Source: Capitulum mitella
Lineage: Eukaryota; Arthropoda; Thecostraca; Pollicipedomorpha; Pollicipedidae
DNA: 64,000 nt
NCBI GenBank assembly: GCA_030062745.1
Contig: CP099841.1
Coordinates: 25,981,398-26,045,397 of the forward strand
Direction of reading: 5' to 3'
Positions within the stretch are counted from its first letter, which is position 1; the number at the start of each line of letters is the position of its first letter. Position numbers and translations under genes: made by a program. This document shows positions 2,745 to 64,000 of this stretch, piece by piece. The notes beneath the pieces are model-generated. The model had not been told where the DNA came from. It was given only the letters and a program-made list of their open reading frames with translations, and did not search any database.

Positions 2745-3970
2745 AGTTCCTTCATGGGTAAGGGCTGGCTGGAATGATCGAAAACAACAGGACGCGGCGC
2801 CTGAGACCCGGGGAAGGAGGGGACCGCTGCCGGGCAGGGCGGCCTTCCAACCTCCTCAGCCGGACCTGCGATCACCGGCGGTGGCGGTGGCGGCGGCGGC
2901 GGCGGCGCGGGGGGCCGCCGGCCGGACGCCGCCGGCCCAGCCGCCCCGCCGTCGGACGTGTCGCGGTCGGACGCACGCACGGGGCGCGCCGGGCCCGCTC
3001 TCGTGACCGCGCCACATCAGCCGCCATTTGAACGTGCCGCCGCGGCGGCCGGCAAAAAGCGTCGAGCCGGCGGCGGCGGCCGAGATCGCCGCCGCCGCCG
3101 CCGCGCGCCTTTTTGTCACGTGGTAATTTGGCGGGGCTTCCGGCGGCCGGCGGCGGCGCGGCCCGGGGCGCGCCCGCGGGCCGCGCCGCCGCCCGCCCGG
3201 CCCGTGGGACAGCAGCCTCGCGGCAATTATCACGTCAGCGGACAGGTAATCGCCCCCAGTGTCGGCCCGGTCTGACGAGACGGCCGACAGGTGATTTAAA
3301 TTGTGCGAGGACGCCGCGGGGTCAGGGTCAGGTTGCGGGATCGCCGAGGAAAGGCTGCTGAACTCCGCCTGGCCGACACCCCAGCCGATCTCCGCGTTCG
3401 AGCCGCTCTTTTGTCGTGCTCCGCTCAGGTTTCAGACGCGACCTCGGCGCAGAAGCGTCTCCGCGATCGCGTGCCGGAGCCAGATGACTGCCTGCGCGTC
3501 ATTATGTCCACCCCGCCCGACGCGACCCCGCAGTCTGCCAATCAATCAGTCTCGCACGCTCGAATCTGCGGCCGCGGCCATCGGCGGCTCGCGTGCATGA
3601 TGAATTGATCAGGCCATGGCCAGTTAGGGCCGTCGTTCCGGCGGCCAACGAGCGGCCGCCGCCAAACCGGCGGCGGTCACGCGCGCGCGGCCCGCGGCCG
3701 GCCGGGTTTCTACGCTGACCCCCGACCGGCCTGACCTCGGCGCGTCGTTAATCGTCGCCGGCGCGCCGCGGCCGCCGCGGTTTCTCCGGCGCCGGGCGCG
3801 CGCGCCGGCAGCCGCCCGCTGCCGCCTGTGTGTGCAAACGATGACGGCGTCCCGCCGCGAGCGCAAATTGGCCGTCGGCGCGGCTGCTGCGCGGTGGAGG
3901 AGCCCGCGCCGGAGACGCACACCGGAGCGCCGGCTCCGCGCACCTCCTGCTCCGCTCCAGACGAGGCAGA
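2745..3970. promoter_or_regulatory. GC-rich island pair, candidate regulatory
   Basis: Two CpG-rich blocks (2780-3330 and 3600-3960) contain AT-rich insets: TCACGTGGTAATTTGG near 3116, GCAATTATCACGTCAG near 3223, GTGATTTAAATTG near 3291 and GTCGTTAATCG near 3745. No coding potential was recognised. Confidence 0.35.
3319..3330 (+). promoter_or_regulatory. GGGTCA direct repeat without spacer (DR0)
   Basis: Two GGGTCA hexamers abut directly at the edge of the GC-rich island at 2780-3330. Low-information evidence, noted because similar sites recur in the locus. Confidence 0.25.
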
Positions 3971-4040: not shown

Positions 4041-6480
4041 CTTTTTACCACGTGACGTGTTGCTGAGGGCGTTTCGCAGGAGGAAAGTTTTTGTTTCTTC
4101 GCTTTGTGTATTCGAAACCCCTCAAAGCAAAGGGTGGCACTCAAGGGCGGCAATTCGCCAAAATTCCTGGCATATATACCTAACATAGTTTGCAGATAGA
4201 TATGCCTCACAAATATTCAATATCAGCCTGTTGATGCGAATTTCAAGTGCCATTATAGCGGTTATAAAAGTACGTAGAGCGATGGAATACCTCGGATTAC
4301 GTTGTAAAAGCATGGTGTTATGAATTTGGTCATAACCGCAAAGTGTGTTTAAATGAACCGTTACTCTCTGGACATGTTTCCATAGGCGCATATTCCATAT
4401 TCCATATACCATTCCATATTCCATAGGCAAGGCCATACTTGTTTTCGTACAGCAGCATAATGACTGAGTCTGTTTGTTGTACAGGGAGGTATTCTGCGCC
4501 GATTTAATGTTATTTAACCTGACCTCTTCCTACCCCAATATCCTGTCTGCCAGTTTTTCCTGTCTGCCACCATCATCTACTTGTTCCGAACATGGAACAA
4601 ATGGACGATTTCTCATGAATGTTTAATATTAGCAGCTAAACGGAATGGATCAAGCATGTAAATGCTACCATTGTCTGCTTTGACCAGCTTCACAAAATTC
4701 TTTACGGGGCATGTGTTTTGGCTGATTTAACGCCGTACCAAAATAAAATAAATAATTCATGCAAAACGCTGAAACATTCACACCTTCTTTCCATCCAACG
4801 GAAGGGTGCAAGGATGACGCGGACTCGTCAGCAGTCTTCCCACACTCGCCGATCAGTCGACTCCCCGAGGACAACGGTCAGACAGAAGTGGTCACTCTCT
4901 CTCTCCCTCCATCTCGCTCTTCCCCTCTCTCCCTTTCCGCCGCCATTTCCGGAGCGTGAGCGCCCATTCCTCAGATCGCGGCCGGAGACAAACGGTGGCG
5001 CCACGTCGCCCAACACGGCGCGCCGTGCTGCGCCGCGTCCTCCGCGCGCTTTATGACGGCCACCGGGCACAGGCGAGCGGGCGGCAGCCCCGGGCCGGAC
5101 GCCACAGTTCGCGTGCCCGGACAGCGGAGGCCATGGCTGCCGCGGGAGGCGGGAACGGCTGCTGCGCCACTGATAAACCGGACTTGGCGACTCGGACCGG
5201 GACGGCGAGACAAACGTGGCAATGTCTCATAACTCCACTGGATCCGTCCACCGTGAACCGTTTACCAACACACAAACAGCTCTGAGCCGAATCGTCCGCA
5301 TTTATAAACATATCCGAATGAGTGATTTGGAGGATGAAGTTATTTGGAAGACTGGACCAACTAGGTTCATGTAGAGTGACTGCTGTAGCCGGGATAACGT
5401 TGTAGTCAGGTTGACTGGGCATCTCGGAATGGCCAGTCACAGCTGGACTGAGTGGGCATGTCTAAAGCTACGAATAAAGGCCGGAGCAAGCACCGTACAA
5501 TGTTGATACGAACATAATTTTGTGGGAAGAGACATCGAAACGTTCCTTAAAAATGCCCTCCAATGTAATGCAATCCCAAGAGAAAGATCGAGAAAAAGTC
5601 GGCGAATACTTGTTATATCATTTCATTGATGCCCTGCATGTATGCAACGGTAACCTGGTGGCAATTGTTGACACATTATGAATCTGTAGTGTAAAACGCC
5701 GAAAAGGGTACAAGGAGTTCTTCGCGGATCCAGAGTAGAGGGAAACGCAGATTTTGTGGTGCTTCTCTTCACCCCAGTGCCTCTCATCCCTTCATAATAC
5801 TACATTCTGTGGAATTCCGCGGCACATGCCTGTCTCTCAGTGGCGAAACCCATGCGGATAGATCCTGCCAACGATTATGAAAGGGACCGAACCGTTTTCA
5901 GCGTCTCAAAACGTGTTGAATGTAGACCATGAGTTTTTTCAAATAACGCTCGCAATGCACCAAGCACGTAACACTTGTAAATGCTTGCCAAACTTTGGAT
6001 ATGATAAAAAAAGATCCTGGCCACTTTCTCTCAATTCTTGGCTCTTCCATAATCAAACCAGTTTCTTTTTGGAACGGCTTCGCTCATTTTCGGAACCATA
6101 TTCTTGTTCCTCATCCTACGTGGATCTACTGGTGATACAGCTGGCCGCAGAAGTCAGCGAGACCGTCAGCGAACGGCTCATGTCGGTCAGACCGCAGAGG
6201 TGAGACCTCTCAGAAGGGTGCCGTGCACCGCCTGTGAACCAGAAGGCTCGAGATGCCGCCCGAGGGCAGTGTGGTGTTTCGATAAATATTCGGGCCGCGG
6301 CCGGCCTCGGCCGTACAGGGCCGCCGATTTACAGGCTGTCGGCGCGCCGGCACGTGACGCCAGTGCGGCCGGCGCCGACACACGGCCAGCCCACCCGTGC
6401 GTCTTGCGTCATGCAGCGCCTCTGCTCGCTCGCACGCGGAGAGGAGCCGATGAAAGCTCGAACATGGACTCTCAGGGTGG
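4041..6480. other. mixed AT-rich DNA with small GC islands, no gene seen
   Basis: AT-rich DNA is interrupted by GC-rich blocks at 4960-5170 (with GCTTTATGACGG at 5050) and 6240-6480 (with GATAAATATTCGG). Positions 5290-6230 hold nothing recognised. Confidence 0.55.
4386..4428. repeat. ATTCCAT short repeats
   Basis: ATTCCATA and ATTCCAT words repeat about five times in 43 bp. No larger unit is apparent. Confidence 0.7.
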
Positions 6481-10618: not shown

Positions 10619-11835
10619 TTAACCCTATTCCCGGAGGGCTAGACGGTATGGTCGATTCCCGGCAGGGGGGGCGGATTCGGCCCCCCCCTGAGATCTCGAG
10701 AACTACTAGTCCGATTTTATCGCAACAAACGGAAATCGATTTGCCGTCACGTGAACTACATTTTTATAAAAAAAAATTTTCAAAATTTTGAAATTTGCGG
10801 ATACAGGGGGGCAAAAATGTTAAAATGGGTGGGTACTTTTGGACTTCTTATAACTCCGTTGTTTATGGACCGATTTCAATGAAACTGGCATGAATCGAGA
10901 GATTTTGGATACGGCTTTTACCATGGGTCCCCAAATCTGAATTTTTTTGAAAATTCATGGGCGTTCACAGGGTTTCAAAAATAGGAGGATTAGTTTTCTA
11001 ACAATTGAATGAACAAAAAAGTCAAAAACACTTTTTTTGCTTCTGCTAGTCATGCCATGCTAAAGAAGTAAAAATCGCATTACAATGTTTGTATAATGTT
11101 AGCATAGGCGGTGTCAGGGACATGAAAAAGGGGAACTGTCATGGTCACACGTTCTTCAGATCAACCTGTGACCTTTGGCCTTAAATGACCTCCAGTGGCC
11201 TTGGAGTCACTTGGAATGATCTCATGTGCATTTGATATTATCTGTAAACGTTTTCAATCATTTGAATTCACTCTATTCCAAAAAATTCATTTTATGGCTA
11301 TTGCGATATAAAGTACGCGCACTGACATTTTAGGTCATAGCTCCGTGACCCGACCTGATATCAAGCTGAAGCTTCGTACACAAGTAGAGGGCACCCTTCT
11401 ACGTCACATATATTCTGGGTTTGCTATTTGAAAAGATGGCGCCGAAATTATTGCAAAAAAAACAAATTTTGAATTTTGACCTTGACCTGACCTTGTAGAA
11501 GTGACCTCAGATAAACGAAATTTTGTGTGCTCATTGCCCAATTATTTAGCTATACATCCATATAAAGTTTTAAGTTGTATCTTAAAAACTCTGTTTTTGG
11601 CAGACATTTTTCTTTTGCCCTCAACATGGCCAAAAATGGCCTGAGGTGCCTCCCAAAAACGTTGCCTGGCTCCGCTCCTAAGCAAAGAAGAATTGTGAAA
11701 TTTTGTCACAGCGCGTGGAAAGAATAACTAGGAAAAGTGACCAAGTTTCGTGAAGCTGCGTTAAAAAGCCTGGAATTGGCAAGCAAAAAACCCGAGGGGG
11801 GCGGATTCAGCTCCCCCTGCCTGGAGTAGGGTTAA
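10619..11835. mobile_element. non-autonomous piggyBac-like DNA transposon (MITE)
   Basis: A 1209-bp segment (10623-11831) is flanked by TTAA on both sides (10619-10622 and 11832-11835), the target duplication of the piggyBac superfamily. The ends form an imperfect inverted repeat: CCCTATTCCCGG on the left and CCCTACTCCAGG read inward from the right. A longer subterminal inverted repeat rich in G and C runs begins GGCAGGGGG on both sides (10661-10692 and its complement near 11796-11825). The interior is AT-rich with no transposase reading frame, so any movement would need an enzyme supplied from elsewhere. It also carries many TGACCT-type half-sites. No second copy was seen in the window. Confidence 0.8.
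11169..11507. promoter_or_regulatory. nuclear-receptor half-site cluster inside the piggyBac-like element
   Basis: The stretch contains TGACCTTTGGCCT (11169-11181, a DR1-like arrangement), TGACCT at 11186-11191, TGACCC at 11346-11351, TGACCTTGACCT with an overlapping third TGACCT (11477-11493), and TGACCT at 11502-11507. On the reverse strand the last group reads AAGGTCAGGTCAAGGTCA, which includes the extended monomer site TCAAGGTCA. Receptor binding is inferred from the motifs only. Confidence 0.4.
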
Positions 11836-17540: not shown

Positions 17541-18843
17541 AGGACTCAGTGTGAACTGAAATCGTACGGAAACCGTTTACTGGAAAGGCGATGTGCAATG
17601 GTTGTCGTAATGAATGAGGGCCTTAGAGGCGGGCGGGGCCCCAGCTTCCCCTTTTGGCTGCGCAGATGCAGATCACCGCAAGATACGAAGCTTGCTGTGA
17701 ATTCAGTAACCGAGAATCATATCAACCGGAACCAACATAATCGTGTTTCTCTTTAAAATTGAAAGGAAGATCACCTTGCCCAAAACATCACATTGTCCAG
17801 CGCGCAAGAGCCACACTACGAGATTGTACTCCATCATACAAAGAGCTCCTCTGCTATTCTTACTCAGTCCGAACAGCACATAACGGAACTAGACCTCTGT
17901 TTCAGATCACGACAAAAAACTTCATTTCTTCAGGGCGTCAGGACGAGCGCTTCTCCAGTCGAGGCACGAGTCCATCTGTGCTGGCGCCATTTACCCCACA
18001 CACTGCCGTCATACGTGGCCGGTGTGGTCCGTGACAATGCCAGGCGGGGACGGTGCGTTACCGTCTCATGCTCACGCCGGATGGCCGTGCGGTCGGCGGG
18101 TGACCCGCAGGTCGCGTGAGGTCGCTGGTGTCGGCGCATCATCAGTGCCCAGTCACGACAATTGTGCGTAGCGCAACTAAAACCGGACGCCCGCACGCAA
18201 AAGACATAAACCGGCCGACGCATAATGGGAAAAGCAAACCGAACGTAACCATGATGACTAGACAAAGCGACTGGGAGAAAGGGCGAGCGGCGCGTGTAAA
18301 AACTGTGGCTTTTCTTGACCCGAAACCCAGTTGTTTGTTCAATTACGCGCGGCTATCCGGTGCGGAGTTTCGTCAGCTGAGACGATTCAGGGACGTTCCT
18401 AGAAGGCGGTCGTGGGAGTGTAGCGGGATTACGACGCCAGCGAAAGGTCGAGCCCGTGTTTTGTGTGCTCGTGAGCCCCGCCGTTGCTTTCATTTCGGAT
18501 GAGCGCGGCGAGGGGTCAGCACTGGGCAGCCGAATGCAGCGTGGCGTTCGAGCTTTCAAACGGATGAATGGGGCTGCCGAATTTAGATGAGCAAGACTCG
18601 CCGATCGTCCTCAGATGCCGCCCGGCATCGTCTTTTCATGGCGAGGCGTAGCTCCGTTTTCTCGGCTGGCGGCGTGTGATTGGAGAGTCGTGCTGACCCA
18701 GATGTGACCTGTGGCGCGCTCAGCTGGCGGTGGTCGGACGGCGGGCCGCTCCCGGGGCGGGCCGAGACAGCGCGTGACCGGCGCGCCAGCAGGAGGTGCC
18801 CCTCGACCTCCGGATCCAGCCGGGGACGGCCGACCGATCTCAT

Positions 18844-19192
18844 ACAGCCCCGGCCGAGTGAGCCCAGACAGCCCCGGCCGACTGAGCCCAGACAGACCTG
18901 GCCGACTGAGCCCAGACGGCCCTGGCTGACTGAACCCAGACAGCCCCGGTCGACTGAGCCCAGACAGGCCCAGCCGACTGAGTCCAGAGAGCCCCGGCCG
19001 AGTGAGCCCAGACAGCCCCGGCCGACTGAGCCCAGACAGACCTGGCCGACTGGGCCCAGACGGCCCTGGCTGACTGAACCCAGACAGCCCCAATCGACTG
19101 AAGCCCAGACAGCCCCGGTCGACTGAGCCCAGACAGGCCCAGCCGACTGAGTCCAGAGAGCCCCGGTCGACTGAGCCCAGACAGCCTCGGCC
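18844..19192. repeat. 24-bp minisatellite with 144-bp higher-order period
   Basis: About 14.5 copies of a 24-bp unit (core CCGACTGAGCCCAGACAG) are present. The variant marked by AGTGAGCCC occurs at 18857 and 19001, exactly 144 bp (six units) apart. Other variants follow the same order in both blocks until a single-base insertion and one extra unit near 19100. Because 24 is a multiple of three, long open frames arise on both strands, for example 18583-19293 on the minus strand; these are not genes. Confidence 0.9.
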
Positions 19193-20560
19193 GTACAGTC
19201 GGAGTCTCGCTGCCAGTCCGACTCGCCCAGCTGGGTGATTCGCAGCAGAACAAACTGGCCCCTCCACGAGAAGGGCAGTCTAACTTGGATCATTTCGCGG
19301 CCCAGTCAAGCTGGCTTCTGGGCTATGACAGTCATTCTCACAGTCAGGGCAGCCTTTTCCTCCGCCAAAGCCGAGTCCAGCCATGTCTTCTTCGTCCTAG
19401 GCTGCACCATCTTGGACTTCTGTCTCATTACTCCTGAACTGTCTAGACTCCCATACCCTCATGTCCGGCCACTGATGATCACGCCGATCTCGCCATTCCT
19501 GACGGCCGCCAGCCTGCCAGACGCCGCCAGCCATTACCAGTCGACCTCCGTACCGCCGGCACCAGTCCGAGGCGCGCCGACCGTCTCCACATCTCCGCAC
19601 TGCGCCACTCCTCGCCGCCGTCGTTACGGCCGCCCGGGCGGCGACGGCGAGGCATTTCCGGCACGGACGGCAGAACTGGCGGCGCAGATCGCGTCGGGCC
19701 GAACTCTGTCCGGGGCCCGGACGGTCGGCGCCGCAGTGAGCGCCGGTCGCAGACGTCGTAACCCGGGCCGTCATCACGGCAGACGCCGTCGTCGGCGACG
19801 ACGCCCTCCCCGCTGTCGTCTGTCGACAGGCCGCGAGGCCGGGTCCAGCCGGGCCAGGAGCGGGCAGGCCGCGTTGGAGATGCAAGGGGTCAGACGGGAT
19901 GCTGCAGAGCGTCTAATAAATCACTGGAATTGTTCACACAGCGGCTGAAACGACTGGAGCCTCTCTGGTGACTGCAAGCGGATTTGCTTTTAGAGCACTA
20001 CGGCGGCGTCCTTCTCAATGACAGAGCTGGTGAGAGTGCTGCGAATAGCCAGTATTTGCCGGTATGTAGCAAAAGGAATTGTTACTTCGTTTGTCACTTG
20101 TTAGACTATAACACAATGGTGAAAAAAACGCTGAGATAATAATGTTACTCGGTTACAGCGACAAAGTACGTACGACAAAGAATACGCTGGGCACAATCGC
20201 TGCTTAGATCTAAGCTATACAGATATGTAGTTTGATATGGGACAGAGCTGGGATTCCGTATGGTAATGCGAAACATATTTCACAATGCCTAGGGAAACGT
20301 TTCGCCATTGTTTTCGTTGTTTTGCAAAGCCTTGACAGCTGCCATAAGACGTCGTCTCGGCTATGACTGCGATGAACCGAAACCCGAAAAGCATGCTCAT
20401 AATGCTAAGGATTACGTCTGTAAATCGTCACCTGTCTCAGTCTGTAGCCTGTCCGCATGTCCATTAACGCTACCGTTTGCCGCAGCTGAGCCGGAATGCC
20501 CGTCAACACAGTCAGATACATGACAGGCGGCAATCACGGTCATCTGCATACCGTTCCTTT
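19193..20560. other. mixed intergenic DNA with a GC-rich part at 19500-19880
   Basis: No gene or strong motif cluster was recognised. TCTAATAAATCACTGG occurs near 19909. Confidence 0.5.
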
Positions 20561-29500: not shown

Positions 29501-29935
29501 CGTACGCTATAGACCCCTTTGATACAATCTGAATAGCTGTCATAAACAATATGGTACACGAAAATCACTCCCACCCACCAATCCCCCTTTTTATTGCGCG
29601 GGCCAGGGCAAAGCCGGGCAAACAAAAACAGGCCGCCGCTCTGGCCGGCCGTCGGACGGCCGGAGCGGCCGGCGGCGGCGCCCCGGCACCGGAAGCGGCC
29701 AGCGCGTGCCGCGGGCTGGGTCAGAGGTCAGAGGTCACTCTGCCGGGCCAAATGGAAGCGGCAAGAAGCCGCTGTCGGCGGAGCGGGAAACAATGTCCGG
29801 CGAACGCTAGTTGAGCCGTGCGTGACGCCATCAATCACGACCCGAACTGTCGCCGCGGCCATTATCTTTCTTTTTCTGCTTCAAAAAGATGAAGGATTGG
29901 GTGCACTAAATAAAGGGAGCGTCATCAGTCCATAG
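29501..29935. promoter_or_regulatory. GC-rich island carrying the triple DR1
   Basis: Besides the triple DR1 (29718-29737) it contains CCATCAATCACGACCC near 29828 and GCCATTATCTTTC near 29858. CpG content is high throughout. Confidence 0.45.
29718..29737 (+). promoter_or_regulatory. triple DR1 nuclear-receptor response element
   Basis: GGGTCA, AGGTCA and AGGTCA follow each other with single-base spacers, giving two overlapping DR1 elements. DR1 is the arrangement favoured by COUP-TF, HNF4 and RXR-class receptors. It lies in a GC-rich island about 19 kb upstream of the gene. One DR1 of this quality is expected about 0.03 times in a window this size with uniform bases, so a triple is very unlikely by chance. 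Confidence 0.6.
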
Positions 29936-30400
29936 TCGGCCGCACGGTGGGCTCCATTTCGAACGCGCTAAATGCCCTGAATGGCAGATTTACCGAGATC
30001 AAAAGCCGGATAGGAGAGAAATGTGGAAGGAATGAAAAGGCGAACAAGGGATGAACAGGAAAAACATACGGAACGCTGGAAGGAAAGATAAATGATGGCT
30101 GCTGAGGACAAAGGGCGAGCACAGTCAGACTTGGTTGTTTACGAGAGTATTAAGCAGTGGCTACCCATTACGGAGAATAATTAAGACGATGATGCCTGTA
30201 GTTCGTTGGTGAGCTGGTTTATGGTAATGCACGTTTGCCAGCATGTTGCACAGGGCTCGTGAGGCTCGACCGATCTTTTCAACCAGGCCAAGACCGATCG
30301 TTGCACTGATGCATCACTGATACGACATCACGTATCACTGGCGTACCATAGCCGCAGTCGGCCTGCCATGAACCATGACCCGAACTTTCCTCGCTGGTCG

Positions 30401-41250: not shown

Positions 41251-41860
41251 CACGACCTGTCTGTTCGTGCACGGAGAGGGCGGTCAGGGCGGCCGGCCGG
41301 GCGCCGCCGGCGCTGTGGGAATCGGTCGCCGCGTGGCGGGGGTCAGCCGGCGCCGATCACGGCGCGCCGCGGCGATCGTCATCGGCCGGCACGACGCGGC
41401 GGCCGCGGCGCGCCGAAAGTCGCCGCGCGCGCCATTGTCCGCCGCCGGCCGGGAGAGCCGGTCGGCGCCGTGACCTCGGCCGGCCGGCCGCCGATGCCGA
41501 TCTAATGCGGCCATGATCCGCGGCTGTAGGGCGTGCAGAGGGAGAAACATTAGGCATGCACGCCTCGCCGGCGCGGCGCACGGCGCGCCGCCGCGGCCGG
41601 CGGCCGGTCGCGGCGGGCGGCGCGGCCGCCGGGGTCGCGCCCCGTGTCGCGCTTAACGGGCGCGCGACGCCGGACGTCGGCGCGCCGGAGGTGACGCGTC
41701 CCGACGCGCCTCTCGCGCCAATCAGGCCCCACTGTTCGGGCCCCGGCGGACGCATCCATCTCCGAGAACGGGCTGGCGGGCGCATTTTCCGCAGCTGTTG
41801 CGCCTTGGATGCATTCGTTAGGGACTTTTGAAAACGGAGTGCATCGGATCGAGCGATCAC
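41251..41860. promoter_or_regulatory. GC-rich island, candidate regulatory
   Basis: Strongly CpG-rich DNA includes a CSL-core near-match (TGTGGGAAT, 41314-41322) and GATCTAATGCGGCCATGATCC near 41498. Fewer AT-rich insets are seen here than in other islands. Confidence 0.25.
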
Positions 41861-49031: not shown

Positions 49032-51772
<2,741 letters not shown>

Positions 51773-51922
51773 GGTGCAAGAGCTTCTTCAAGCGCAGCGT
51801 CCGGAAGAACCTGACGTACGCGTGTAGAGGGAATAGGAACTGCCCCATAGACACGCATCATAGGAACCAGTGCCAGTTTTGTCGCCTGCGCAAATGCCTC
51901 AAGGTCGGCATGCGGAAAGAAG
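51773..51922 (+). CDS. svp: COUP-TF / seven-up, coding exon 2 (P-box, zinc finger II, start of hinge)
   Basis: This exon completes Gly100 and encodes residues 101-149 plus the first base of Ala150. It supplies Cys101, the last ligand of finger I, and the recognition helix [16 protein letters not shown] with the P-box CEGCKS typical of receptors that bind AGGTCA half-sites. Finger II follows with Cys117, Cys123, Cys133 and Cys136. The acceptor is a pyrimidine-rich tract ending CCGCAG at 51772, and the donor is G|GTAAGG at 51922/51923, so both flanking introns are phase 1. Compared from memory with the near-invariant family core, finger II differs slightly: [17 protein letters not shown] here against IDQHHRNQCQYCRLKKC. 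All eight zinc ligands are intact, so the domain should fold and bind DNA. Confidence 0.96.
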
Positions 51923-53684: not shown

Positions 53685-53946
53685 GGTCAAATGTGGTAAA
53701 CCTGGTCAGATCCGGTCAGACTTGGTCAGATCCGGCCAGACGCAGAAGACAAGTTCAAATGGGGTCAGACGCAGTCAGACGCGGTCAAACGCGGTCAGAC
53801 GAGGTCAGGCGTGGTCAGGAACGGTCAGACACGACCAACATGATGAGACCTGGCCACACGTGGTCACACGCGGTCGCGCTCGGTCAGGCGTGGCCAGACG
53901 AGGTCGTGCCCGGTCAGACGCGGCCACGCGCGGTCAGACCCGGTCG
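53685..53946 (+). repeat. 10-bp GGTCA minisatellite in svp intron 2
   Basis: About 24 degenerate 10-bp units of the form GGTCAGACGC run for 262 bp, with 14 exact GGTCA cores. Most cores are preceded by C or T, so only two make the full RGGTCA hexamer. The period places cores on nearly the same helical face, with a four-base gap between hexamer positions as in DR4. It may simply be a minisatellite, but its half-site content inside a nuclear-receptor gene is notable. Confidence 0.75.
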
Positions 53947-54420: not shown

Positions 54421-55782
54421 TCGAACGCGCGTCGGAAGTGCGGCCGACGGCTGCCGGGGGCGCCTCGCCCCGGCGACGGGGGGCCGGGCGCCGGGCCGCC
54501 GCCCGCGCTGGAGGCGTCCGCCATCGGCGACGCGTCGGAGGCGGCGGCGGCCGGGCAGCTGGCCCCCGTCGCCGCCGGCGACACGCGACACGACCCGGCC
54601 GCCGGGGCGCCGCGTTTATTTGCGTCTGCCGTGTCGGCCGCGCCGGCGGCGGCCGGCCGTCGCGCGGACGCGGCCTGTGCACGCCCGGCGCGCCAGGAAC
54701 GCTCCCCGTCCGTTCAATAAAACACGTCGCTGCACGGGCGACGCGCCGAGAGGGGGCCGCGGCCGGCGGGTCGGGCGACAAAGGAGGCCGTCTCCGGCCG
54801 GTCGCGCGCGACGCGCCGCCGGCCCGCGTTTTTGTCCGGCGACGGGCCGCGTCGTCGCCGACGGTGCCGGCGGCGGCCGCCCCCCGCGGCGGCGCCGACG
54901 ACCCGTCCGGCTGGCGACGCGCTGCGAGGGTTCGGCTGGCGGGGACGCAGACGGTCGCCTGCAGAATGGTCCGGACGTGCGGGGTAGCGGGTGCCGGTGA
55001 TTGAGGAGGGTAATTGGGCGATCATGATGGAACGGGCATGCTATCAGATGTGAATGTGCGGTGAAATTCGTCGCAATCTTTACCGTGGTTGAAGTAATGA
55101 CTGATGGAAAACACGCGGTGAAATAAAACCAGGACAAGGCTGTCATGGGCTGCCTTTCCATTCCCACAAGACGGGGGCAAATGTGGTTTACCGAAAGGAC
55201 ACGTAAATGTTAGAACGATAGAAGCAGGCTGTGAACATCTGTAATACGCGGGATGTAAACACGCCTGTGACACATTCGGCATGGAGCATGCTAACACCAC
55301 CTCAGGTGTCAAAATACGTAAGGTAACGACGCATCAGCAGGGCTGAGAACGAGCAAAACGATGTGAGTCTGACTCCCAAAGACGCATGGAGTGAACGAAA
55401 AGACAGCATATGCATGAAGGGTGGACTGGATTTAAGGACGGGCATGCGAATGCGCTTTACGGATGGAACGCCTCGAAATTCAGCACGATGTCTGTGGATA
55501 TCTGCAGTGCAGGGGCGTTTTTCGGTTGCGAGGATCAACAGCTGAATTTCTCGTAATAAATAACCCCGGGACGGTCGTGTGAGGGATGACACTGATACTG
55601 TCACCGCCTTCTGTCCAGCGTGATTGCAAGCGTATGTTGTCGAATGTTCTGACACAGAACGGACACAGTTCGGACACGGAGCGGGTGGACCGTGGGTCCC
55701 ATTCAAGTGGTACCTGGCGGAGTATCCGGCGGGTCGGAGGTAAATGGAATCAGTCGTTTGCGTCACTATGCTGGTGCCAGCC

Positions 55783-55797
55783 AGGTCAGACAGGTCA
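55783..55797 (+). promoter_or_regulatory. perfect DR3 of AGGTCA in intron 2
   Basis: Two exact AGGTCA half-sites are separated by GAC. COUP-TF proteins bind AGGTCA direct repeats with varied spacing, and DR3 is also used by other receptor dimers. Its place inside the gene's own intron suggests feedback, which is inference. Confidence 0.45.
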
Positions 55798-56939
55798 GGA
55801 AGACGAACCGGAATAGGCGGACAAGTCGGACGAAATGCGCAGGTTTCATTTGGTAAATTATAGACAAGCTGGAAGAGTGCTCCGCAATTGATGCGTGAAA
55901 ACCAGGCGTACAGTACGTACTAACGGTCCGAGTCTAGTCGTATATATCCAAATGAAATGTCCTGGGAACCTTTTTGAAATGACTGTGGTGTCCGGTGTGA
56001 GAAAACGCAGGGATAATAACGCCTAGCTGTCTGGCTGCCATGTAACTTTCCATCGCCCGGTCTGCGCGAGGCTCTCTGACATTCGCTTGATCTCCCGCTT
56101 TCTTGGAAGGAGCCTGTTCCGCAAACTGCTCAGGACACGTGGCAAAATGTTCGATGTGTAATGCTCTCTCTAGGAGATCTTGGAACAAATCCCAGGGGAG
56201 ATTTTCCGACAGACGGCCAGCAGACGTCATGAACCCCAGAGACTTCGGCGGGTTGGTAGAAAAACGTCGGGACACAACAGACAGAACATACCGCTGGCCG
56301 CACCGCAGATCATCCGCAGACGACGGACTCCTTTCGCGGAAGACCATCGGACAGATTACAACAGACCCTCGGCCTGCCGCTCGACAGGCGGCCGCTCCGA
56401 CAGGCAGACCGGCCGACAGACGGCCCCAGACCCCGCGGAGGCCTCGGAGCGACGGACCGCCGACATGCAGACCGCCTGGCGTCCCGCCTCCCCGTCCGGC
56501 CGGCCGCGGGCAGCAGGGTGACCGCGGCGACGTCGGAGGCGGCGCCGGCCGGTCTCGCTCCAGAGGGCGGCCCATCAGACGTCAGAGAGGGGAGCGCCCG
56601 GTCTCGTTCGCGAGCGTGACTCTCAGAGACGGCAGAGGGGCGGGGTAGGGGTCTGTCTCTTTCAGGGGTCAGGGGAGACGCCAGGGGGGAGGCCCACCGA
56701 GACGGAGGGGTGGGGAAGCAGAGGCCCGCTGCGATCAAGAGAGACTCCGGCCGGCCGTTCTGGGGAGGCTGACCCTCGGAGACATTATAGGCGGACGCGG
56801 CGCGGGCATTGACCGCGACCAGCGACACGAAACCCAGTTCCGAACCAAGGACATTAAAAACGCATCGACCTCATTCGGCGTGAGCGCCGCCGGCGGCGGC
56901 GGCGGCTTCCTCGACAGCTGCGTGAGCTGCTTCGCGTCC

Positions 56940-61054: not shown

Positions 61055-61591
61055 CGGTCCAGCGCGGCCGGATACCGGTGCCGCAGCACGGCATCGTGCC
61101 CGGCCAGTTCTTCACCAACGGCGACGCGCTCAACGGGCACGGCTACCTGTCGGGCTACTCGTCCTACATCTCGCTGCTGCTGCGCGCCGAGCCCTACCCG
61201 CCGTCGCACTACAACCAGTGCCTGCAGCCGGGCGGCACCATGGTGATCGAAACCATCTGCGAGCTGGCGGCGCGCATCCTCTTCAGCGCCGTGCAGTGGG
61301 CGCGGTCGATCCCGTTCTTCCCGGAGCTGCAGCTGCAGGATCAGGTGGCGCTGCTGCGCTTCGTCTGGAGCGAACTGTTCGTGCTCAACGCCAGCCAGTG
61401 CAACATGCCGCTGCACGCCGCCTCGCTGCTGGCCGCCGCCGGCCTCCACCCGTCGCCGATGGCCGCCGAGCGCGTCATGGCCTTCATGGACGTGATCCGC
61501 ATGTTCCAGGAGGAGTGCGAGCGGCTGAAACAGCTGCGCTGCGACTCGGCCGAGTACAGCTGCATGAAGGCCATCGTGCTCTACACCACAG
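61055..61591 (+). CDS. svp: COUP-TF / seven-up, coding exon 3 (hinge and most of the ligand-binding domain)
   Basis: This exon completes Ala150 and encodes residues 151-328, leaving one base for the next codon. It begins with AVQRGR, the typical post-finger segment, then a variable hinge and [14 protein letters not shown]. The ligand-binding domain starts near [13 protein letters not shown] (187-198). The nuclear-receptor signature lies at [20 protein letters not shown] (231-250), followed by [11 protein letters not shown] and [15 protein letters not shown]. The acceptor is TCTGTTGCAG at 61054 and the donor G|GTGGGT at 61591/61592. The rest of the domain, about 95 residues in human COUP-TF including AF-2, lies beyond the window. 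Third codon positions are almost all G or C. Several positions usually fixed in the family are changed, for example HAASLL for HVAPLL and [12 protein letters not shown] for QEQVEKLKALHV, suggesting a fast lineage or a second paralogue. Confidence 0.95.
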
Positions 61592-64000
61592 GTGGGTCTG
61601 GTGATGTGCGGGGAGGTGGACGTCCGGCCGAGTGGAGGCGCCCGGGGCGTGCCGCCGCGGGCGGTGGCCGGCCGCTGCCCGGGCCGCTGAGGTGGCGGCG
61701 CCGGCCCGCGCCCCGTCAGCTCTGACGCCACGCACAGCCGGTGTCGGCTCCCGAACGTCGTAGTAGCCCTGCGACGCTACCGCAGGGAGGGCTACTCGGT
61801 GTCCTCCGCGCCGGCACTGAAGTGGTGGCGCTAGACGACGATGCTGGACAAAGGTTTTGGGGATTTTAAAGGGGCGTGAGGGCTTTAAAGTCGTCTGTGT
61901 TCATCAGATCCCTGGGGTGACCCTCAAACGCGCGCCTGGAGACAACGCGACCCTAATCTGTGGCGGCGGTTTAGGATTAGAGCTGGAATGCACCCTTCTA
62001 AGGTGCTAAAGCGATACCGCACGCGAGCTACCGTCAGGCACCCAAATCCGATCTGGACTTCTCGCTGATGGTCTCTGCAAAGCGCGGGCTGCTACATTTT
62101 GGTCCATCGGCTAAGGCGTTCAGTCGCTCATCAAGAAGCTGTCTGGTTTACGGTTTCAGGCTCATGGCCGTCACAAACGTCTTACTGAGCCCGCCTTATT
62201 TGCTGATCCTGGATCTGACGGCACCTTAATTACGCTCAGATAACACCCACGGCTGGCGGGGTTTAATCTCCATTGTGGGTCCGCTCGCTGATGGAAGTTC
62301 AGTCCCTAGCGTTGGTTCAATCAACGGTTTGTATTCGGTCCCCATTGGGTCCGATCCACAGGTGCAGGAGGGGAATTTTAGTTAGTAGGACGGGCTGATA
62401 ATTGTCGACAACAGCGAACACCAGTCGAGCGTACCCCAATAACCCAAATACGCTGTTCTCTCTGTGGAGTTCAAAGGGCATGCATATGCATAGACACTGG
62501 CCTTATTACCCGCTCAGTGGTTGTTTATGGACACGACCCAGCGTCTAGTGTCTCTCCGGTCCCCGGTGTGGTCCGGGCCGACCAGAGCCGAGCCCAGGTC
62601 AAGTCCGAGGCGAGGTGAGGCGAGCCGAGCCGAGCCGAGCCGAGCCGAGCCGAGCCGAGCCGAGCCGAGCCGAGCAGAGCAGAGCAGAGCAGAGCAGAGC
62701 AGAGCCGAGCCCAGGTCAAGTCCGAGCCGAGCCGAGCCGAGCCGAGCCGAGCCGAGCCGAGCCGAGCCGAGCCGAGCCGAGCCGAGCCGAGCCGAGCCGA
62801 GCCGAGCCGAGCCGAGCCAAGCCGAGCCGAGCCGAGCCGAGCCGAGCTGGGCCGAGCCGAGCCGAGCCGAGCTGGGCCGAGTCGGGCCGAGTCGTGACCG
62901 CCCTCGGCCGCGCCGCTCGTTGCAGGCCGTAATTAGGCGGAGAGTTGGAGAAGGTCACGCGTCGGCAGGCGCCGGCGGACGCCGAGACGGCTGGCGTGCC
63001 GCCGCCCGATCCGGTCCGGTCCGGCCAGGGCGGCTGAGGACGCGCCGGACGGCGGCCGCGTCGACAGCCGGCGGCCCGCCGGCGCCGGGTCAGGCCGGCC
63101 GTACGCCACCGAAGCGGGTCAGAGCGGATCTGCTGACGGCCGGTGTCTGATGACCCGTACGGCCGCGCCGGCGCCGGCCGCGCGCCTGCCGCCTGCCGAC
63201 TGCCGCCTGAGGTCGGCCGGCTGGTCTGTTGACTGGTTCCCGGTGGACGGCGTGTCGCGGCACACTAGCGGGGCCGCCTCCCACGTCGTGATGCCGAGCG
63301 TGCCGCTGGAGCCGGGATCGGCACCGGGCCGATCGAGGTCGGACACCGAGCCGGGCGGTGGTGGCATCGGCTGAAGCGTCGTAAGCGGAAATGCCTGATA
63401 CCGTTCGGGGAGCGTCGTCCTGCGGTGGCTTGCAGACGTGAGCGCGCGGCCTTATCGATAAGCCTGTACCGATTTACCCGTGCCGTGCCAGGCTGGAGGG
63501 TGACTGAGATGCCGTGGCACCGTTGCAGCGTGGGGAGCGGCGTCGAGCCGCCGCCGACCACTCAGCATGCGCGGCCGCCGCGCGCGCTGGCCGTCATTGA
63601 GAGTGCTGTTGTGATTGCGGCGCGCCGTCCGCGGGCGGCCGCAAAAACGGCGCGGAACCCGGCGAAGAGCCGCCGCGCCGCTGCCGCCGCCGCCCGGTGT
63701 CGTGCCGAGGGGCCGTCTCGGGCGGCGGCGGCGGCCGGGGCCGGCGGGTCCGCGGCCGCCGCTCGTCACCGCGCCCCGGGCCACCGGCCGGCGGAGCTCC
63801 GGCGGGGACGGCGCGAGCGCCGCGGCCGGGCGGCGCGGGCCGGGGTCGGCCGGCTGACCTTCCCGGCCCGGACCGGTCGCCGGGGTCCGGCAGACGGCGG
63901 CGGCGGCGGCGGCGCGTCACGGCCGCCCTGCAGCCGGCCGGCCGCCCGCTCCGCCCCGGCTGCAGGGGTTATCGCCGCGATCGCCGGCCGCCGCGCGGGC
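61592..64000 (+). other. svp: svp intron 3, 5' part
   Basis: The segment begins with the donor GTGGGT and runs to the window edge. The expected continuation, the family segment DACGLSD after IVLFTT, was not found in any forward frame, so the next exon lies beyond position 64000. The segment holds a GC-rich start (to 61740), a mixed stretch (61740-62570) with nothing recognised, the GAGCC pentanucleotide array, and a GC-rich island from 62900 to the end that contains TATCGATA at 63453-63460. Confidence 0.8.
62585..62892. repeat. GAGCC pentanucleotide array in intron 3
   Basis: The array consists mainly of (GAGCC)n with an internal block of (GAGCA)n at about 62674-62704. The same 25-bp leader, GAGCCGAGCC followed by CAGGTCAAGTCCGAG, begins both halves (62585-62609 and 62702-62726), 117 bp apart, showing a segmental duplication. 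Open frames over it are repeat artefacts. Confidence 0.9.

Follow-up and report, generated by a model that had tools for sequence, protein, structure and literature searches.

The rat CRBPII element contains several AGGTCA half-sites 1 bp apart. The CRBPII promoter is activated by RXR and suppressed by COUP-TFII together with RXR (PMC4890907). Direct repeats with one spacer base (DR1) are the configuration bound by COUP-TF with the highest affinity, and many other spacings are bound too (PMC2811727). COUP-TF2 was described as tolerant of varied spacers (PMC10345098), and it was also reported that A is strongly preferred as the DR1 spacer (PMC6555819). The binding of RXR and COUP-TF2 in vitro is reported to be nearly identical (PMC6555819, citing another study). 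DR1 is recognized alike by homodimers of HNF4, RXR and COUP-TF2, and HNF4 binds it with a preference for a CAAAG core (PMC10315846). In the rat genome, matches to a COUP-TF model occur once per 1124 bp (PMC2811727).

We analyzed a 64-kb stretch of DNA (the window, positions 1-64000) in which a triple DR1 had been predicted upstream of a COUP-TF gene. The element comprises the following features.

29718..29723, + strand: half-site 1, GGGTCA (read from the sequence)
29725..29730, + strand: half-site 2, AGGTCA, common to both overlapping DR1s (read from the sequence)
29732..29737, + strand: half-site 3, AGGTCA (read from the sequence)
29719..29737, + strand: 2.7 tandem copies of GGTCAGA without mismatch (100% matches in Tandem Repeats Finder; exact period-7 scan)

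Direct reading of the + strand at 29718-29737 (GGGTCA g AGGTCA g AGGTCA) confirmed the three RGGTCA half-sites with single-base spacers that the original prediction had placed there. Defined as two direct RGGTCA or RGKTCA half-sites with one spacer base, DR1 is present twice in overlapping registers, and both spacers are G. This is the single instance of an RGGTCA triple at 1-bp spacing within the 64-kb window. At the same time, 19 of the 20 bases repeat the 7-mer GGTCAGA perfectly and constitute a short tandem repeat, with at least two adjacent head-to-tail copies of its unit. Approximately 50 bp before the triple DR1, a GC-rich stretch of 35 bp (29635-29669) forms an imperfect palindrome (86%).

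We consider the element to be a product of GGTCAGA tandem duplication, most likely not dedicated to the regulation of the COUP-TF gene, and we give this reading a probability of about 0.68. A DR1-like pair, GGGTCAGAGGTCA, would have acquired its third half-site by one further 7-bp duplication, in DNA where such duplications are approximately 3 times more common than base composition predicts. In vitro, the product would accommodate one DR1-binding dimer at once, in either of two registers that have the middle half-site in common; this view of the binding mode is partly carried over from overlapping ESRRG monomer sites. The perfect period-7 array, detected by both Tandem Repeats Finder and exact scans, speaks for the duplication reading.

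The frequency of DR1 sites was compared with chance under base composition. With uniform bases, 0.03 DR1 had been claimed per 64 kb and the arithmetic gives 0.0305; the strict triple is then expected 0.000015 times per window (about 0.0015%). In Markov simulations of orders 1, 2, 3 and 5 (150 runs each), which contain no local tandem duplication, the mean numbers of DR1 pairs were 0.007, 0.033, 0.013 and 0.060, respectively. We observed three, and none of the 150 runs of any order reached this number. The triple, present once in the window, was found in 0 of 600 runs. This result and the perfect period-7 structure, which suggests duplication, argue against the view that base composition produced the triple by chance and with no duplication involved. 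Such a coincidence would be helped by the fact that half-sites are fairly common, with 87 RGGTCA in 64 kb, but we regard it as very improbable.

The number of RGGTCA half-sites exceeded the 46-57 expected at orders 1-3 and was equal to the 87 expected at order 5. We also compared direct repeats of RGGTCA (spacing 0-5) with those of 385 hexamer classes, each consisting of R and five letters and occurring 60-120 times. Six places were found for RGGTCA, while the class mean was 0.89, and four of the 385 classes reached at least 6. These were RGGTCA itself, RGTCAG, three of whose six places are also RGGTCA places, and two classes found mostly in GAGCC arrays near 62.7 kb. The control speaks for RGGTCA direct repeats being somewhat enriched in the locus. 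Half-sites of the RGKTCA form are locally dense, with 8 within 750 bp on either side of the triple; among 1220 overlapping windows of 1500 bp that lie away from it, 47 had as many. The half-site excess at orders 1-3, the rank among the top four of 385 classes and the local density of RGKTCA count against the duplication reading.

Tandem duplication was assessed for any hexamer repeated at 1-bp spacing. We found 59 such period-7 stretches, or 57 without homopolymers, against a mean of 19.3 in 60 order-3 simulations (maxima 28 and 39 in two sets). For units of at least three letters the numbers were 40 vs 13.1, and for units with all four letters 13 vs 4.5. Period-7 arrays of at least 19 bp were present three times, with 0.017-0.033 expected; two of them contain at least three letters, and the only one with four letters is the GGTCAGA array. 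The other two, at 4389 (CATATTC) and 25539 (CGCCGCG), are built of unrelated units. An excess of tandem matches was seen at all periods from 5 to 12 across positions 1-64000, and it was strongest at period 10 (75 vs 15.3).

We then calculated odds with this background by giving the stretches, in place of their own units, 7-mers drawn at random from the window (20,000 trials per setting), using between 57 stretches (high) and 39 (low; low complexity and the triple's own site removed). At least one DR1 is expected in 12-18% of windows, a core of three GGTCA in 0.4-1.4% and the strict triple in 0.08-0.5%, odds to be read with the triple having been chosen post hoc among many possible motifs. Repeating the statistics with matched complexity filters and with the triple's own site taken out moved the chance of the triple from 0.5-1.3% to 0.1-1.4% and that of a DR1 from 18% to 12-18%, and our weighting of the readings did not change. 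The duplication background multiplies the chance of the strict triple approximately 50 to 300 times in comparison with uniform bases. The rarity of the triple had been an argument for its function. This argument is weakened by the perfect 7-bp repeat structure of the element and by the tandem-rich DNA in which it lies; the part that stands is that the triple is still uncommon (0.1-1.4% per window even with the duplication background), which counts against the duplication reading.

The six places with RGGTCA direct repeats are 3319 (DR0), 11477-11507, 18694 (DR5), 29718, 49153 and 55783 (DR3). Half of them overlap arrays found by Tandem Repeats Finder (11476-11495, 29719-29737 and 55778-55798). 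Outside the triple, the sequence scan also located the following DR1 sites.

30369..30381, - strand: relaxed DR1, GGGTCATGGTTCA, 632 bp from the triple, overlapping a 7-bp duplication at 30366-30378
49153..49165, - strand: RGGTCA DR1, AGGTCACGGGTCA, in codons of COUP-TF exon 1

The DR1 at 49153 was set aside as a regulatory partner because it lies inside codons. GGTCAG is also present in tandem stretches of other periods, namely the 10-bp repeat at 53704-53945, a 9-bp repeat at 55778 and the DR0 at 3319. The period-7 excess, these further occurrences of GGTCAG and the existence of another DR1 in coding DNA all support the duplication reading.

On the - strand, 11477-11507 holds four RGGTCA half-sites in 31 bp, among them TCAAGGTCA, presumably the extended half-site type used by ERR/FTZ-F1 receptors. 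The repeat at 53704-53945 is a 10-bp minisatellite of approximately 24 units GGTCAGAnnn (65% matches), located within the second intron of the COUP-TF coding region. It contains 13 GGTCA cores, only two of them preceded by a purine; the 12 gaps are 10 bp in six cases (DR4 spacing), 20 or 30 bp in four and 39 bp in two. One could imagine that the COUP-TF locus gathered arrays of the half-site of its own protein by tandem duplication, these being the 29718 triple, the cluster at 11477-11507 and the second-intron GGTCAGA minisatellite with neighboring cores at DR4 spacing. They would then form an autoregulatory or titrating platform, the strength of which could change rapidly as units are added or lost. 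We treat this idea as speculation with little chance of being correct.

An interspersed repeat as the origin of the element was rejected, as the 701 bp around the triple matched elsewhere in the window only in short segments (15-58 bp, E no better than 8.7e-4). The strongest non-self hit of this flank (E 2e-5) was the triple's own upstream palindrome. Comparison of the window with itself (low-complexity filter, at least 40 bp) revealed only a 24-bp minisatellite at 18.8-19.2 kb. This minisatellite (18827-19193) has 15 copies and is open in several frames. Long 5-bp arrays of GAGCC/GAGCA were observed at 62621-62872.

The gene downstream of the element was modeled from three coding exons.

49074..49371, + strand: COUP-TF coding exon 1 (a further in-frame ATG at 49059), beginning of the zinc finger, with a canonical GT donor (Pfam zf-C4, 1.1e-6; spliced model)
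51773..51922, + strand: COUP-TF exon 2, remaining zinc finger, CEGCKS across the junction (Pfam zf-C4, 1.1e-19)
61055..61591, + strand: COUP-TF exon 3, beginning of the ligand-binding domain (phmmer match to 3cjw_A, COUP transcription factor 2, 3.4e-69)

The model (NR2F/Svp) gives an open frame of 328 residues with GT-AG introns. Both the domain matches and the best solved-structure match of the ligand-binding part, COUP transcription factor 2 (E 3.4e-69), bear out the identification of the gene as COUP-TF. A probe for the C-terminal ligand-binding exon gave no match in the window. The name svp for this gene presupposes an arthropod. The DNA-binding domain contains the residues CEGCKS, which we take to be the P-box, in agreement with the claim that the protein has the P-box for this half-site. 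Judging from these residues, the COUP-TF protein would recognize AGGTCA.

The distance from the element is 19,337 bp to the ATG at 49074 or 19,322 bp to the ATG at 49059, which agrees with the predicted 19 kb upstream; it is counted to the coding start, and the transcription start may lie elsewhere, with the triple possibly in a 5' intron. The triple is located, as expected of an autoregulatory element, near a COUP-TF gene whose protein is predicted to recognize AGGTCA. That the downstream gene would encode a receptor for this very type of motif counts against the duplication reading.

The triple could be a distal response element for COUP-TF/Svp itself, on which Svp dimers, or Svp with Usp/RXR, bound in either register would damp svp transcription. 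It is consistent with this that DR1 is the preferred site of COUP-TFs (PMC2811727), that COUP-TF2 accepts varied spacers (PMC10345098) and that, for rat Nr2f1, a distal COUP-TF motif was hypothesized to serve as a repressive module of autoregulation (PMC3681674). COUP-TF is also the nearest recognized gene in the Pfam scan (ORFs of at least 70 aa, 8-49 kb), and the relaxed DR1 lies 632 bp from the triple. However, local duplication is a simpler origin, the spacer is G instead of A, and another cluster rich in half-sites exists at 11477-11507. COUP-TF autoregulation through the triple DR1, which the original prediction had called plausible, is plausible also in our view, but we consider it rather unlikely. 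The concept of a distal COUP-TF motif in autoregulation has a precedent, as it was already put forward for rat Nr2f1 (PMC3681674). Among the excerpts of papers considered, those of that paper alone proposed COUP-TF autoregulation.

The fit of the 20 bp to the receptors depends on the half-sites and on the spacers. The 20 bp should be bound in vitro by COUP-TF/Svp or RXR/Usp-type dimers, and the G spacer is probably below the optimum for Svp or Usp-type dimers. The preferred spacer A is absent, with G at both positions; the preference is not strictly defining, as COUP-TF2 tolerates other spacers (PMC10345098). DR1 had been named as a target of COUP-TF, HNF4 and RXR. The half-sites fit COUP-TF and RXR, but HNF4 fits more poorly, with CAGAG in place of CAAAG; an HNF4 CAAAGTCCA-type 3' side was not found, and the element reads CAGAGGTCA. 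With its preferred CAAAG core missing, HNF4 was judged less likely as the main binder and ranks last in likelihood among the three named receptors. Sequence alone predicts little here, because COUP-TF model matches occur approximately once per 1.1 kb in the rat (PMC2811727). Frequent model matches in genomes, together with G spacers where A is preferred, are in favor of no dedicated role (PMC2811727, PMC6555819).

The element might also respond to another DR1 binder (Usp/RXR-type dimers, EcR/Usp or HNF4) that tunes svp or an unrecognized transcript near 29.7 kb. The near identity of RXR and COUP-TF2 binding in vitro (PMC6555819) and the sharing of DR1 by HNF4, RXR and COUP-TF2 homodimers (PMC10315846) would allow it. 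The missing CAAAG core and the fact that no second gene was recognized in the 8-49 kb scan, which short exons and non-coding genes would escape, make such a response improbable. Counting all functions together, autoregulatory or otherwise, a functional element seems unlikely to us, although it merits consideration.

In that scan, all ORFs of 70 aa or more that overlap 8-49 kb (240 in total) were searched against Pfam in two sets (134 ORFs and COUP-TF exon 1, then the remaining 106). No other gene family was found, short exons being invisible to the scan, and exon 1 alone matched a gene family. One ORF of the second set matched Prion_octapep (0.00019), which was taken for low complexity and not for a gene. 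No RNA family of Rfam matched at the gathering threshold. A tRNA-Arg (gcg) reported by ARAGORN at 41558-41653 is probably false, as it overlaps a GC-rich repeat and has no Rfam match at the gathering score.

The main lesson of this analysis is that the rarity of a direct-repeat motif should be judged against local tandem duplication. The regulation of Svp/COUP-TF expression pulses was described as poorly understood in any system (PMC4694770). Therefore a genuine self-binding element in the svp flank, if true, would be valuable.

Compared with the DR1 element (AGGTCAnAGGTCA; COUP-TF, RXR, HNF4), the triple matches the half-site letters, the orientation and the 1-bp spacing twice, but it has three half-sites in two overlapping registers with G spacers and is known here from its sequence. 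The CRBPII element lies in a promoter and comes with reporter data, whereas the triple is located 19 kb from the ATG. The COUP-TF motif in the Mcs1a gene desert resembles it in its long distance from a COUP-TF gene and in the repressive autoregulation proposed for it (PMC3681674). What sets that motif apart is its known conservation across human, rat and mouse and its position in a region that, when mutated, lowers Nr2f1 (PMC3681674). The DR2 elements of Alu are similar in that receptor direct repeats arose from repeat DNA (PMC1785376). The Alu DR2 elements were spread by an interspersed element (PMC1785376), while the triple appears to derive from a local 7-bp duplication and its flank has no interspersed copy in the window.
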